Assembly (NCBI RefSeq): GCF_003675875.1
Contig: NZ_RCDI01000002.1
Coordinates: 374,786-438,785 of the forward strand
From: Halostella limicola
Lineage (GTDB): Archaea > Halobacteriota > Halobacteria > Halobacteriales > Natronoarchaeaceae
Length of the DNA stretch: 64,000 bases
Direction: 5' to 3'
Position numbers and translations under genes: made by a program. The notes beneath the pieces were generated by a model. The model had not been told where the DNA came from. It saw only the letters and a program-made list of their open reading frames with translations, and did no database searches. This document shows positions 53,798-57,601 of the stretch, one piece after another. Position 1 is the first letter of the stretch. The number at the start of each line of letters is the position of its first letter.

Positions 53798-54520
53798 ATG
53801 ACGACGGATCCGGACCGAGAGAACGGGACGAACGGGGCGGGGAGCACGGCGGCGGAGGCCGAGGCACCGGTCGCCGAGCTCGACCCGGACGCCGGCGCGC
53901 GCGGGGCGGCGTACGCCCTGCTGGCGCGGGCGTTCGGCCACCCGGAGGAGCCGTTCTACGACGCGCTCAGTCGGGGGAGCGTCGCCGCGCAGTTCGAGTC
54001 GCTGTTCGACGAGACGACGCTCGACGTCGACGCCCCCGCCCCGACGACGGACGACGACTACGAGACGCTGTGTGCCCGGTACAACGACCTGTTCGTCGTC
54101 GGGCACGCGGAGTACGAGGACCGCACCGACGGGACGGTGAACTCGACGGGGCCGCCCGTACCGCTGTACGAGTCCGCGTACCGCAGCGACGTGTCGTGGA
54201 ACGACGTCAACCTCGACCTGGCGAGGGCGTACGACTACTACGACCTCGGCGTCGACGAGTCCGACCGGGACCACCACGACCACCTGCGGCTCCAACTGGA
54301 GTTCGCCGGCTACCTCGCCCGGCGGGAGTCCCTCGAGGGCGAAGGGGCGGACGCCGCCCGGCTCGACTTCCTCGACCGGCACCTGCGGGTGATCACGGAG
54401 GGCGTCGTCGAGCGCCTCGACGAGGAGCCGGGGACGGGCGCGTACGGCGACCTCGCCGCGCTGCTCGACGCGTTCACGGCCGCCGACCGGGCCGACCTCG
54501 TGACGAGGGTGGAGGGGTGA
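53798..54520 (+). CDS. narJ: NarJ/TorD-family maturation chaperone
   Basis: A 240-residue acidic, all-helical chaperone. It has ARGAAYALLARAFGHPEEPF near 30 and a Pro-rich PPVPLYESAY near 120. Such proteins bind the Tat signal and help insert the molybdenum cofactor into NarG. Starts four bases after the previous stop. Confidence 0.88.
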   Translation: MTTDPDRENGTNGAGSTAAEAEAPVAELDPDAGARGAAYALLARAFGHPEEPFYDALSRGSVAAQFESLFDETTLDVDAPAPTTDDDYETLCARYNDLFVVGHAEYEDRTDGTVNSTGPPVPLYESAYRSDVSWNDVNLDLARAYDYYDLGVDESDRDHHDHLRLQLEFAGYLARRESLEGEGADAARLDFLDRHLRVITEGVVERLDEEPGTGAYGDLAALLDAFTAADRADLVTRVEG

Positions 54521-55446
54521 CCGTGGCGGGGGAGTCCACTCACGGAACGGACCCGGCCGGCGTCCGGGCGGTCGCCGAACGGGTCCGGCCGCGGACGCCC
54601 GGCGAGGTCAGAGCTGTCGGCGGAACGCTCGCGGCCGCCGCAGTCTGCCTGCTGGCGGCGGCCCGGATAGCGCTCAACGCGCCGCTGGGCCAGTCGCCCG
54701 CCGCCGCGCAGACAGTCCACGTCGTCGCGACCGCGGCCGCCGTCGTCGTCCCGGGCGCCGTCGCGGTCGCCGCCGGGGTCGTCGCCGACACCGACTGGGA
54801 ACTTGTCGGGCTGGTCGCCGCGGGGACGTTCGCCGTCGTCGCGCTCGCCGCGCCGGTCGCCGGAGTGCCGGCCGCCGGGGTCCTGCCCGTCGCCGCCGTT
54901 CTGGTCGCGGGACCGAGGCTAGCGGGAACCGAACGAGCGGCGATACGGCGGTGGCCCTTCGCGGGACTCGCGGTCGTCGCCGTGGCGCTCTCGCTGGGCG
55001 CGAGCACCGGCGTTCTCGCCGCCGGTGCGCGCTCGCTCGGGACGACCGCGGCGCTGGTCGCGCTCGTCGCGGCGCCGCTTTCCGTCGCGGCGTCCCGCCG
55101 GTCGCTGGTCGTCGGCGCCGTCGCCGCCGCCCTCGTCGCGGCCGCCGCGGTCGCCGCGCCGTTCGTCGCCGGCGCCGCGTTCCTCGCGGTCGCCGCAGCG
55201 GTCGACCCGAACGTCGCCGTCGCGGCCGCCGCGGTCGGCGGGGGCGTCGCTGTCGTGACCGAGGGGCTACACCGGCGTCGGGTGCCGGTGGCCGCCAGCG
55301 GGTCGCTGTTGCTGGCCGCCGGCGTCCCCGCGACGGTGCCTCGCGCGCTCGCGGTCGTCCTCGGCGTTCACCTCCTGCTGGTCGCCGGCGCGCCGTCCAC
55401 ATCGGGGCGCGCTTCCGGGACAGCGAACGGGGGTGAGCCGGCGTGA
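54517..55446 (+). CDS. Unrecognised polytopic membrane protein in the nar operon
   Basis: A 309-residue protein, very Ala/Val-rich, with about nine hydrophobic helices and almost no polar motifs. GTG start overlaps narJ as GTGA. No family is recognised. Conserved charged residues are few (e.g. ATERAAIRRW), so a structural or small-molecule transport role such as nitrate/nitrite exchange is only one possibility. Confidence 0.6.
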   Translation: MTVAGESTHGTDPAGVRAVAERVRPRTPGEVRAVGGTLAAAAVCLLAAARIALNAPLGQSPAAAQTVHVVATAAAVVVPGAVAVAAGVVADTDWELVGLVAAGTFAVVALAAPVAGVPAAGVLPVAAVLVAGPRLAGTERAAIRRWPFAGLAVVAVALSLGASTGVLAAGARSLGTTAALVALVAAPLSVAASRRSLVVGAVAAALVAAAAVAAPFVAGAAFLAVAAAVDPNVAVAAAAVGGGVAVVTEGLHRRRVPVAASGSLLLAAGVPATVPRALAVVLGVHLLLVAGAPSTSGRASGTANGGEPA

Positions 55447-56357
55447 GCGACGACCGGAACGGCACCGGCGAGAACCACGACGGCTGCGACTGCGGCTCCG
55501 GCGGGGGCCACGGCTGCGGCGGCGATCACGACCACGACCCGGAGGACGGCCCTCCGGACCCCCAGCTCGACCCCGAGCGGAGCCCGGGGTTCGGCGAGGA
55601 CCCCGACGGCCTCGACGAGATCGAGGTGAGCCGCGACGTCACCATCGGCGAGGCGACGCCGGAGGAGCTGATGGCGAGCGACACGTCGCCGGTCGAGGAC
55701 GACCCGGTCGGCGACCACCTCGAACGGCTCCGCTCGGGGACGAAGATCGAGCGGCGGCGCGCCGCGCTCGCGCTGGCCGACGCCGACGACCTGGGCGACC
55801 GCGTCGCCGAGACGCTCGCCGGCGTCGCCCAAACCGACGCCGACGCCGACGTCCGGCAGTTCGCCGTGGAGGCGCTGGGAAAGATCGGCGGCGAGATCGC
55901 CGAGCGGGGGGCGCTGGCCGTGACGAACGACGACGACCCCTGGGTGCGCGCGGAGGCAGTGGTCACGGTCGATCGGCTCGACCGAGCGGCCCACAAGGAC
56001 CGGCTCGAACGGGCGCTCGACGACGACCACCACGCGGTCAGGCGCAACGCGCTCATCTCGATCTTCAAGCTCCGGGGGGAGGACGCGCGTGACGACCTCC
56101 TGTCCGCGCTGGAGGACCCGAGCGAGCGCGTCCGCGAGTGGGCCGCACACATGCTCGCCGGCGTGGACGACGACGAGGCCCGCGAGGCGCTGAAGCGCGC
56201 GGCGACCCGCGACGAGAGCGGCGTCGTCCGAACCACCGCCGGCAACGCGCTGCAGGAGGACCCCGCCCGGTTCCGGCGCTCCTTCCGCGGCGCGCTCTCG
56301 GAGCGGGAGGTGCTGCTCCCCGGCGAGGACCTGCTCAACCGACAACCGGACCTATGA
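55443..56357 (+). CDS. HEAT-repeat protein with a Cys/His-rich head
   Basis: A 304-residue protein. The first 40 residues contain DGCDCGSGGGHGCGGDHDHD, a likely metal-binding segment with four Cys and three His. From about 90 on it has five HEAT/PBS-lyase-like repeats (RRRAALALADADDLGDRVAE, VRQFAVEALGKIG, VRAEAVVTVDRL, VRRNALISIFKL, VREWAAHMLAGV). GTG start overlaps as GTGA. Possibly a metal- or cofactor-delivery scaffold for Nar; that is inference. Confidence 0.75.
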   Translation: MSDDRNGTGENHDGCDCGSGGGHGCGGDHDHDPEDGPPDPQLDPERSPGFGEDPDGLDEIEVSRDVTIGEATPEELMASDTSPVEDDPVGDHLERLRSGTKIERRRAALALADADDLGDRVAETLAGVAQTDADADVRQFAVEALGKIGGEIAERGALAVTNDDDPWVRAEAVVTVDRLDRAAHKDRLERALDDDHHAVRRNALISIFKLRGEDARDDLLSALEDPSERVREWAAHMLAGVDDDEAREALKRAATRDESGVVRTTAGNALQEDPARFRRSFRGALSEREVLLPGEDLLNRQPDL

Positions 56358-57601
56358 GCGTACCAGACACCGAACTCCGCGAACGAGTCGAGACAGCCCT
56401 GCGACGCGTCGAGGACCCGCGGCTGGGGATGAACGTCTTCGAGGCCGGCCTCGTCGAGGCGATCCGCGTCGACGACGGCGCGGTCGTCGTCGAGGCCGCG
56501 CTCGACGGGTTCGAGGGCGACGCGGTCGAGGGCGTGACGCAGGCGATAGTAGCCGCCGCGGCCGACGCGGAGGGCGTCGACCGGGCCCACGTCGAACCGA
56601 CGACGCCGTCCGCCGAGGACGCGGTTTCTGTCGCCGAGATCGACACCGTCGTCGCGGTGGCGAGCACGAAAGGCGGCGTCGGTAAGACGACCGTCGCGAC
56701 CCACCTCGCATGCGCGCTGGCGGCCGACGGGGACCTCGCGCTGTTCGACGCCGACATCTACGGGCCGAACGTGCCGTCGCTGCTCGGCGTCGACGGGATG
56801 ATCCGCGCGGACGAGGACGACCGGCCGGTCCCCCTGTCGGTCGGCCCGATCGAGGTGATGAGCACCGCGCTCCTGACCGAGGGCGGGCCGCTGGCGTGGC
56901 GCGGGGCGATGGCCCACGACGCCCTGACAGAACTGTTCGAGACGACCGCCTGGAGCGACCCGGGGACGATGGTGATCGACCTGCCGCCCGGGACGGGCGA
57001 CGTCGCGCTGACGACCCTGCAGGAGGTGCCGGTCGACGGCGTGGTCCTCGTCACGACGCCGTTTCACACGAGCCTCGAGGACACCCGCCGGAGCGTCGAA
57101 CTGTTCGAGGAGAACGGCGTGCCGGTCCTCGGCACCGTCGTCAACATGGACCGGTTCACCTGCGAGTGCGGCCGCGAGCACGATCTGTTCCCGAACGAGG
57201 AGACGGGCGAAGCGTTAGACGCGCCGGTGCTCGCCCGCCTCCCCTTCGACCGCGAGATGCAGGCGGACCCCCGGCCCGGTACGGCCCCCGACGCCGTCGA
57301 GGCGCTGGCCGACGACGTCCGGGAGCGCCTCGACGACCTCGACGGGATCGCGGTGCCCGACGACGCCGTCGACCTCCGCGGCGAGCCCGCTCGCCGGCGC
57401 TACGACCTCGTCAGCGAAGCGTTCGGCGACCTCGACGCGGGCGAGCGACTGCACGTCGTCAGCGACCGCGACCCGACGCCCGCCGGCGAGTTCCTCGTGG
57501 ACTTGCTCGGCGCGTCCGGGCCGCCCGAGGACGCCCTCGACGAGTTCGTGGTCGAGCGCAAGGGGCCGGACGAGTGGGTGCTCGTCGCCGGCCGGCCGTG
57601 A
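56354..57601 (+). CDS. Mrp/NBP35-type P-loop ATPase with N- and C-terminal extra domains
   Basis: A 415-residue Fe-S carrier-type ATPase. An MIP18-like domain covers residues 1-~90, then the deviant Walker A ASTKGGVGKTTVA near 103, switch II VIDLPPGTGDVALT, and a C-terminal DUF2249-like domain (ERLHVVSDRDPTPAGEFL). The cysteine pair that ligates the cluster in Mrp is C-E-C here (TCECG) rather than CxxC. It ends the operon and overlaps the HEAT gene by four bases. It may deliver clusters to NarG/NarH. Confidence 0.82.
   Translation: MSVPDTELRERVETALRRVEDPRLGMNVFEAGLVEAIRVDDGAVVVEAALDGFEGDAVEGVTQAIVAAAADAEGVDRAHVEPTTPSAEDAVSVAEIDTVVAVASTKGGVGKTTVATHLACALAADGDLALFDADIYGPNVPSLLGVDGMIRADEDDRPVPLSVGPIEVMSTALLTEGGPLAWRGAMAHDALTELFETTAWSDPGTMVIDLPPGTGDVALTTLQEVPVDGVVLVTTPFHTSLEDTRRSVELFEENGVPVLGTVVNMDRFTCECGREHDLFPNEETGEALDAPVLARLPFDREMQADPRPGTAPDAVEALADDVRERLDDLDGIAVPDDAVDLRGEPARRRYDLVSEAFGDLDAGERLHVVSDRDPTPAGEFLVDLLGASGPPEDALDEFVVERKGPDEWVLVAGRP

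Follow-up and report, generated by a model that had tools for sequence, protein, structure and literature searches.

Respiratory molybdoenzymes receive some five iron–sulfur (Fe–S) clusters before export through the twin-arginine translocation (Tat) pathway, a process that is poorly known, and in bacteria cluster insertion is ascribed to general Fe–S carriers together with NarJ. The DNA analysed here, a 64,000-nucleotide (nt) stretch of the Halostella limicola genome (contig NZ_RCDI01000002.1, positions 374,786 to 438,785; hereafter the window), carries a nitrate reductase (nar) operon in which three further genes follow narJ. These encode a polytopic membrane protein (MEMB), a HEAT-repeat protein (HEAT), and a fusion of MIP18-like, NBP35-type P-loop ATPase and DUF2249 domains (MRP). 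The three-gene block is the fixed tail of haloarchaeal nar operons, and the HEAT gene is exclusive to these operons and one related class of exported molybdoenzyme operons. The haloarchaeal nitrate reductase probably has a private assembly line. Client choice in Fe–S delivery has so far been studied mainly in the eukaryotic cytosolic iron–sulfur assembly (CIA) system. Here, a compact gene set with a candidate carrier and HEAT adaptor side by side is tied to one enzyme class in every sampled haloarchaeal genome having the enzyme, and the genetics and operon of Haloferax would allow client choice to be tested on a single client, using one or two adaptors.

Comparison with described systems

The CIA parts include the HEAT protein MMS19, Cia2/MIP18 (DUF59), NBP35/Cfd1, and adaptors ending in tryptophan, such as Lto1 (PMC4523923, PMC10623007). 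The block resembles this system in that a HEAT-repeat protein is encoded beside MIP18-like and NBP35-type domains, and in that protein X of the related class B operons, described below, ends in tryptophan like Lto1. In contrast, HEAT spans only ~300 amino acids (aa) and has no MMS19 match, as Pfam returned generic HEAT families only; the MIP18-like domain of MRP lacks cysteine; and the block has one client operon instead of a whole proteome. Moreover, X ends in EAW, ETW, DAW or EVW, which does not fit the [LIM]-[DES]-[WF] signal, and no Cia1 WD40 protein was found among the operon products scanned against Pfam and NCBIfam. Because of the missing MMS19 family match, the missing Cia1 and the misfit of the X tripeptide, the likeness to CIA is one of analogy and not of membership, and serves as a hint at a possible mechanism.

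Compared with the Mrp/NBP35 carriers (ApbC, Mrp, MrpORP and NBP35/Cfd1), MRP is alike in its PF10609 domain, deviant Walker A motif, cysteine pair at the position of the bridging cluster, and MIP18-like N-terminus. It differs by the C-terminal DUF2249 domain, the CxC of the window copy, its place in the operon of one enzyme, and scores far below the equivalog cut-offs for ApbC (NF008669, 164.6 versus 348 bits) and MrpORP (NF041136, 180.6 versus 450 bits). HEAT and MRP are encoded beside, and inherited with, one molybdoenzyme, as are the NarJ/TorD chaperones (redox enzyme maturation proteins), but their folds are unrelated and NarJ is already present in the operon.

The haloarchaeal nar operon ends at narJ in an older review (PMC2483277). 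In Haloferax mediterranei, E6P09_17415 is the same fusion at the same operon place as MRP, and was induced under denitrification with a log2 fold change of 3.60 (PMC11218638, published in 2024). It was treated there as a DUF2249 protein of unknown role; a role in denitrification was proposed for DUF2249 proteins, and neither HEAT nor Mrp is mentioned in the main text (PMC11218638). The first-pass annotation of the window had called the block a plausible undescribed system, which is too broad for the MRP/DUF2249 gene, whose presence and induction were thus published for H. mediterranei. For HEAT and MEMB, no literature was found on either, or on HEAT proteins in the maturation of haloarchaeal nitrate reductase or molybdoenzymes, in a search of main texts from mostly open-access papers.

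In Thermus, a double mutant of the DUF2249 genes beside nar still made NarG, with activity reduced to a tenth (PMC6282519). The products, DrpA and DrpB, are like MRP in being DUF2249 proteins encoded next to nar, and are needed for normal nitrate reductase (Nar) activity. They differ in that they possess no ATPase, DrpB has a DUF1858 domain, DrpA is periplasmic, and both were proposed as nitrate sensors (PMC6282519), whereas the DUF2249 of MRP is fused to an ATPase; among the operon proteins searched with Pfam, none has DUF1858. The Thermus data (PMC6282519) provide indirect support for DUF2249 proteins beside nar affecting enzyme maturation.

Operon classes and distribution across haloarchaea

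Searched against the window's genome, MRP matched in full length at three sites, and the HEAT matches fell on these three sites as well. Each is a type-II molybdoenzyme operon with its own HEAT and MRP, so that no set is shared. A second nar operon, on contig C5, has an identical gene order throughout and a NarG 75–77% identical to that of the window. The third, on contig C6, encodes an alpha subunit ~30% identical to NarG and under the family cut-off, in the order G, H, chaperone, gamma, HEAT, X, MRP, with X being a protein of 239 aa from no known family. Hereafter, nar operons are termed class A, and C6-type operons with a distant NarG relative class B. Class C operons have an alpha subunit near 1180 aa and no HEAT; in 16 of the 21 loci examined, an MRP-like gene lies upstream of G. 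Of note, the class B alpha subunit (L027:11064-14225, minus strand) is well under the family cut-off, and class B operons occur in 20 of 212 haloarchaeal genomes. X (L027:6549-7268, minus strand, and orthologues) is encoded between HEAT and MRP in most class B operons and ends in tryptophan in 20/20.

One set of 212 haloarchaeal genomes, each with a completeness of 90% or more, was searched for MRP, HEAT and NarH. Genes of the comparison loci were called by a simple script trained on seven window genes, which misses genes in L034, L065, L067, L069, L071 and L078; for L065, L067, L069 and L078, the presence of HEAT was established by the protein search and not by gene calls. HEAT was found in all 57 genomes with a class A or B operon (56 by match and G164 by gene call) and in none of the 155 others. 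For 56/57 against 0/155, Fisher's test gave p ~6e-51, a value to be read with the genomes being related and not independent; the exclusiveness of HEAT does not depend on it. Fifty-nine of the 62 HEAT matches were on the same strand and at most 8 kb from a NarH or NarH-like gene. The other three are accounted for by contig ends: in G121 and G088 the operon leaves one contig end and HEAT sits at the contig start, a layout typical of a circular replicon, whereas the G187 contig stops just past narH. A comparison of nar loci for the block had been suggested by the first-pass annotation, which would have abandoned its proposal had the block been found mainly away from nar genes; this is not its distribution. 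Its claim that the block is dedicated to Nar was upheld as to belonging, by distribution and co-inheritance, but not as to Nar only, since class B carries HEAT and MRP and class C carries MRP.

Across the phylum (296 genomes), MRP matches at 1e-50 or better were confined to the window's own order. The three genes are annotated merely as hypothetical, HEAT repeat and P-loop NTPase proteins in Halomicrobium urmianum (LCY71_RS19485/80/75) and Haloferax larsenii (KU306_RS18530/25/20). In the latter, the operon continues after MRP with a MobA gene, a further cofactor gene. In G165, a partial MRP lies next to a narB remnant, and the stretch examined contains no other nar gene.

Co-inheritance with the operon

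For each of eight genes (narC, narG, narH, gamma, narJ, HEAT, MRP and MEMB), the nearest relative of the window copy was always L033 (G138), from another family; because every tested window gene shares this relative, the unit travels whole. For the second nar operon, on C5, the nearest relative was L035, from its own genus, for seven of the eight. Accessory-gene distances track those of narH and narJ as closely as nar genes track one another (r 0.87–0.97), with shared species history contributing to the correlation. In the MRP tree, class A proteins form a single clade with a support of 0.99, which also holds three copies from one class B-carrying genus; L121, within this clade, had been labelled class C by the script but is a nar locus located where a contig begins. 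Judging by this single, well-supported clade, nar MRPs are old operon-specific lineages and not recent copies, and the accessory module moves and ages together with its operon.

Features of MRP, HEAT and MEMB

All three Pfam matches of MRP exceed their cut-offs, namely PF10609 (205.2 versus 27.1 bits), with a deviant Walker A; PF01883 (38.5 versus 23.5 bits), fused to the ATPase; and PF10006 (35.1 versus 29.5 bits). The first-pass description of the block as an unrecognised polytopic membrane protein, a HEAT protein and an Mrp/NBP35–MIP18–DUF2249 fusion was confirmed. Matches of the ATPase part in the PDB were Mrp-type carriers and Cfd1. Walker A and the cysteine pair (CxxC or CxC) are retained in 38/38 class A MRPs examined, and the pair in all class B MRPs of the alignment. 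A role as Fe–S carrier fits the ATPase family and the cysteine pair of the nar MRPs.

Two side observations concern MRP. A class C clade devoid of the cluster cysteines (L081, L083, L087, L088, L090–L094, L098 and L104) mostly keeps the P-loop and keeps the operon link, being encoded upstream of class C molybdoenzymes. The nar operons of genus g29 that lack MRP (L063, L065, L067 and L069) proceed to a protein of 73–83 aa and mostly also to a radical S-adenosylmethionine protein, with free DUF2249-like genes nearby.

HEAT contains three HEAT_2 stretches according to Pfam. The conserved parts of nar HEAT proteins are a flexible N-terminal motif, the solenoid, and an LLPGEDxLNRxPDL tail whose final residue is leucine in 41/41. 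In the predicted model, the solenoid (residues 88–285) is confident and both ends are disordered. Solenoid residues such as R138, Q139, F140, E143, W167, R169, E171, R201, N202, R231 and E232 are common to classes A and B, unlike the ends, which differ by operon class. This is the pattern expected for one shared partner and differing clients, though the common set is only suggestive, as the HEAT repeat consensus itself accounts for some of the positions. A fold search retrieved designed alphaReps, AP adaptors, CpcE/CpcF and importins, which mark the solenoid as generic and give no hint of function. Metal binding by the Cys/His head, which the first-pass annotation had singled out in the context of metal delivery, was rejected: the head is found in the window lineage only, with a hint in L033 alone among orthologues, most of which start with MRDxEEATDGPxDP, or in Haloarcula with MTGCHDDDEFEK. 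A di-iron HEAT protein of the deoxyhypusine hydroxylase type was likewise discarded, the match being weak (0.0018).

MEMB had no Pfam or NCBIfam match, and its alignment shows no conserved histidine or cysteine. Orthologues occupy the same place in 40/40 resolved nar loci, with a median identity of 35%, and MEMB changes much faster than its neighbour genes. The hydrophobic reading frame before HEAT is open in 40/40 orthologous nar loci with that stretch present, and in 37 of them its overlap with HEAT is exactly 4 nt, so it is not a chance frame. MEMB is not found in class B or C operons. An AlphaFold2 model from nine sequences was unreliable, with a predicted local distance difference test (pLDDT) score of 53 and a predicted template modelling score of 0.33.

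Proposed function and alternative explanations

The reading that we favour, with a probability of roughly 0.5, is that the block forms a maturation module dedicated to its clients, the exported, Tat-dependent NarGH and one related molybdoenzyme, with MRP as Fe–S carrier, HEAT as scaffold and MEMB at the membrane. MRP would be a private carrier of the NBP35/Mrp type, holding an Fe–S cluster on its paired cysteines and releasing it with ATP turnover, and the MIP18-like and DUF2249 domains flanking its ATPase would serve for docking. HEAT would bind the MRP carrier through its solenoid, and its flexible, enzyme-specific ends (the N-terminal motif and the LNRxPDL tail) would present apo-subunits, of which NarH and NarG, at its cluster site, are the probable ones. 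NarJ would keep NarG open beside the HEAT step, MEMB would hold maturation at the membrane, and the loaded NarGH would then be exported via Tat. What was observed directly is the anatomy of the genes, their operon-exclusive distribution and co-inheritance, the private copies in each operon, and the ATPase and cysteine motifs retained in nar copies; that MRP binds a cluster and docks with HEAT, which clients are served and what MEMB does we infer. It is the family membership of MRP that suggests an Fe–S content for this step. A further-reaching and rather doubtful extension, drawn by analogy, is an archaeal single-client counterpart of CIA targeting, in which the HEAT adaptor, the fused MIP18–NBP35 carrier and, in sister operons, the Trp-ended X would have been independently assembled to load Fe–S clusters into exported molybdoenzymes.

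Several findings weigh against the module as proposed. MRP is missing after HEAT in 5/48 nar loci from two genera (L063, L065, L067, L069 and L078), and in one further nar locus a contig end precludes the call. Because these five loci keep HEAT without it, MRP would appear dispensable, unless the housekeeping Mrp substitutes. Eleven of the 16 class C MRPs, forming one clade, lack the cluster cysteines, so members of this family can function with no cluster to carry, and Fe–S delivery is for this reason something that we only infer; the alignment listing had 18 class C copies, of which the nar-derived L120 and L121 were mislabelled by the script, for a true count of 16. In the window MRP and its nearest relative, CxC replaces the CPxC, CDxC or CExC found at that position in most nar orthologues. 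Finally, MEMB has no informative homologue.

The loss of cysteines from class C MRPs that nevertheless remain with their molybdoenzyme favours a maturation module of another kind, in which HEAT and MRP would be ATP-driven chaperones that help to insert molybdenum cofactor or heme, assemble subunits or proofread Tat export, and MobA, MobB or solute-binding transporter genes do adjoin several of the operons. We regard this as unlikely, given that all nar and class B MRPs in the alignment retain the pair and that chaperoning and proofreading are already NarJ's in known systems. The odds are lower for a regulatory module responding to nitrate or nitric oxide, with DUF2249 as sensor and the ATPase and HEAT as relay, along the lines proposed for DrpA/DrpB. 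The shared DUF2249, the nitrate-independent nar expression that follows loss of the Thermus proteins (PMC6282519), and the free DUF2249 genes also found near haloarchaeal nar would agree with it; against it, the fusion includes DUF2249 but no DUF1858 partner of the DrpB kind, the same fusion is carried by class B operons that are not nar, and the Thermus mutant is also maturation-defective (PMC6282519).

Passenger genes or spare housekeeping Fe–S carriers with no special link to Nar are very improbable and nearly refuted by the distribution: haloarchaea do have a housekeeping Mrp and five nar loci lack MRP, but HEAT is exclusive to these operons and MRPs are private, old lineages of each operon class. 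The place of MEMB is more evenly balanced, with only slightly less than an even chance that it is no maturation protein but serves Nar as a membrane anchor, a transporter or a respiratory-chain subunit, and that the module consists of HEAT and MRP only, which is compatible with the maturation role proposed for these two. Such a reduced module would match the class B and C operons, in which HEAT, MRP or both occur while MEMB is absent, and the much faster evolution of MEMB. The location of MEMB, which in almost every nar locus comes after narJ and before HEAT with 4-nt overlaps, speaks for inclusion, and the lack of a conserved histidine, hence of an obvious heme b, speaks against a respiratory subunit.

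Operon anatomy and coordinates

The window nar operon (45797–57601, plus strand) comprises an open reading frame (ORF1), narB (Rieske), narC (cytochrome b), a small ORF, narG, narH, the heme b gamma subunit gene, narJ, MEMB, HEAT and MRP. The junctions from narJ to MRP are three 4-base overlaps (54517–54520, 55443–55446 and 56354–56357), each start sitting within the stop of the preceding gene. Read from the sequence, these agree exactly with the first-pass coordinates; that annotation also took the tight coupling to imply output equal to NarGH, on which the overlaps give no information. NarG, NarH, gamma and NarJ all exceed the cut-offs of their DMSO reductase type II families (1250/985, 541/481, 195/170 and 158/152 bits, respectively, for TIGR03479, TIGR03478, TIGR03477 and TIGR03482). 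NarG has the cluster motif H-x3-C-x3-C ... C and the type-II sequence YSDLPPGEP, and its Tat-signal match is slightly under the Pfam cut-off. In the Pfam scan, the Nitrate_red_del domain (PF02613) was found in narJ only, and not in HEAT or MEMB.

Table 1. Features of the nar operon and its accessory genes, in window coordinates.
Feature	Position	Strand	Basis or remark
CGAACATGTTCC, palindromic core GAACATGTTC	45633..45644	.	One mismatch versus H. mediterranei denitrification promoter motif (PMC11218638); 153 bp upstream of the operon's first gene
narG, exported type-II molybdoenzyme alpha subunit, presumed client	48756..51872	+	TIGR03479, 1250 bits; weak Tat-signal match
narH, Fe–S subunit, presumed client	51872..52951	+	TIGR03478
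Heme b gamma subunit, ethylbenzene-dehydrogenase-like	52948..53793	+	TIGR03477
narJ, DMSO-reductase-II-type chaperone	53798..54520	+	TIGR03482
MEMB, polytopic membrane protein, GTG start, 309 aa	54517..55446	+	~7–9 predicted transmembrane segments; no known family
HEAT, HEAT-repeat protein, putative adaptor, GTG start, 304 aa	55443..56357	+	PF13646, 1.9e-22
Cys/His/Gly/Asp-rich head of HEAT, residues 13–32, DGCDCGSGGGHGCGGDHDHD	55479..55538	+	Lineage-specific, not in most orthologues
Flexible N-terminal motif conserved in nar HEAT proteins, PDPQLDPERSPG...DIEVSRDVTIGEATPEEL	55557..55673	+	Alignment; low pLDDT
Alpha-solenoid of HEAT, ~six HEAT repeats, residues 88–285	55704..56297	+	Predicted model, pLDDT mostly >85
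C-terminal tail of HEAT, LLPGEDxLNRxPDL, conserved, stop directly after final Leu	56313..56357	+	Alignment
MRP, MIP18-like + NBP35-type P-loop ATPase + DUF2249 fusion, ATG start, 415 aa	56354..57601	+	Pfam domains
MIP18/DUF59-like domain of MRP, residues 9–80, no Cys	56378..56593	+	PF01883
NBP35-type P-loop ATPase domain of MRP, residues 96–305, Walker A KGGVGKT	56639..57268	+	PF10609
C270-E-C272 of MRP, position of cluster-binding cysteine pair	57161..57169	+	CxC here; CxxC in most orthologues
DUF2249 domain of MRP, residues 339–410	57368..57583	+	PF10006

A scan of the window for the denitrification motif showed no site near 54.5 kb, and yielded seven near-matches against two expected by chance. 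Elsewhere in the genome, the housekeeping Mrp (L029:5109-6140, minus strand) is encoded between MobA-like and YqeC genes, near an aldehyde ferredoxin oxidoreductase gene, and another Mrp (L028) adjoins a further molybdopterin oxidoreductase.

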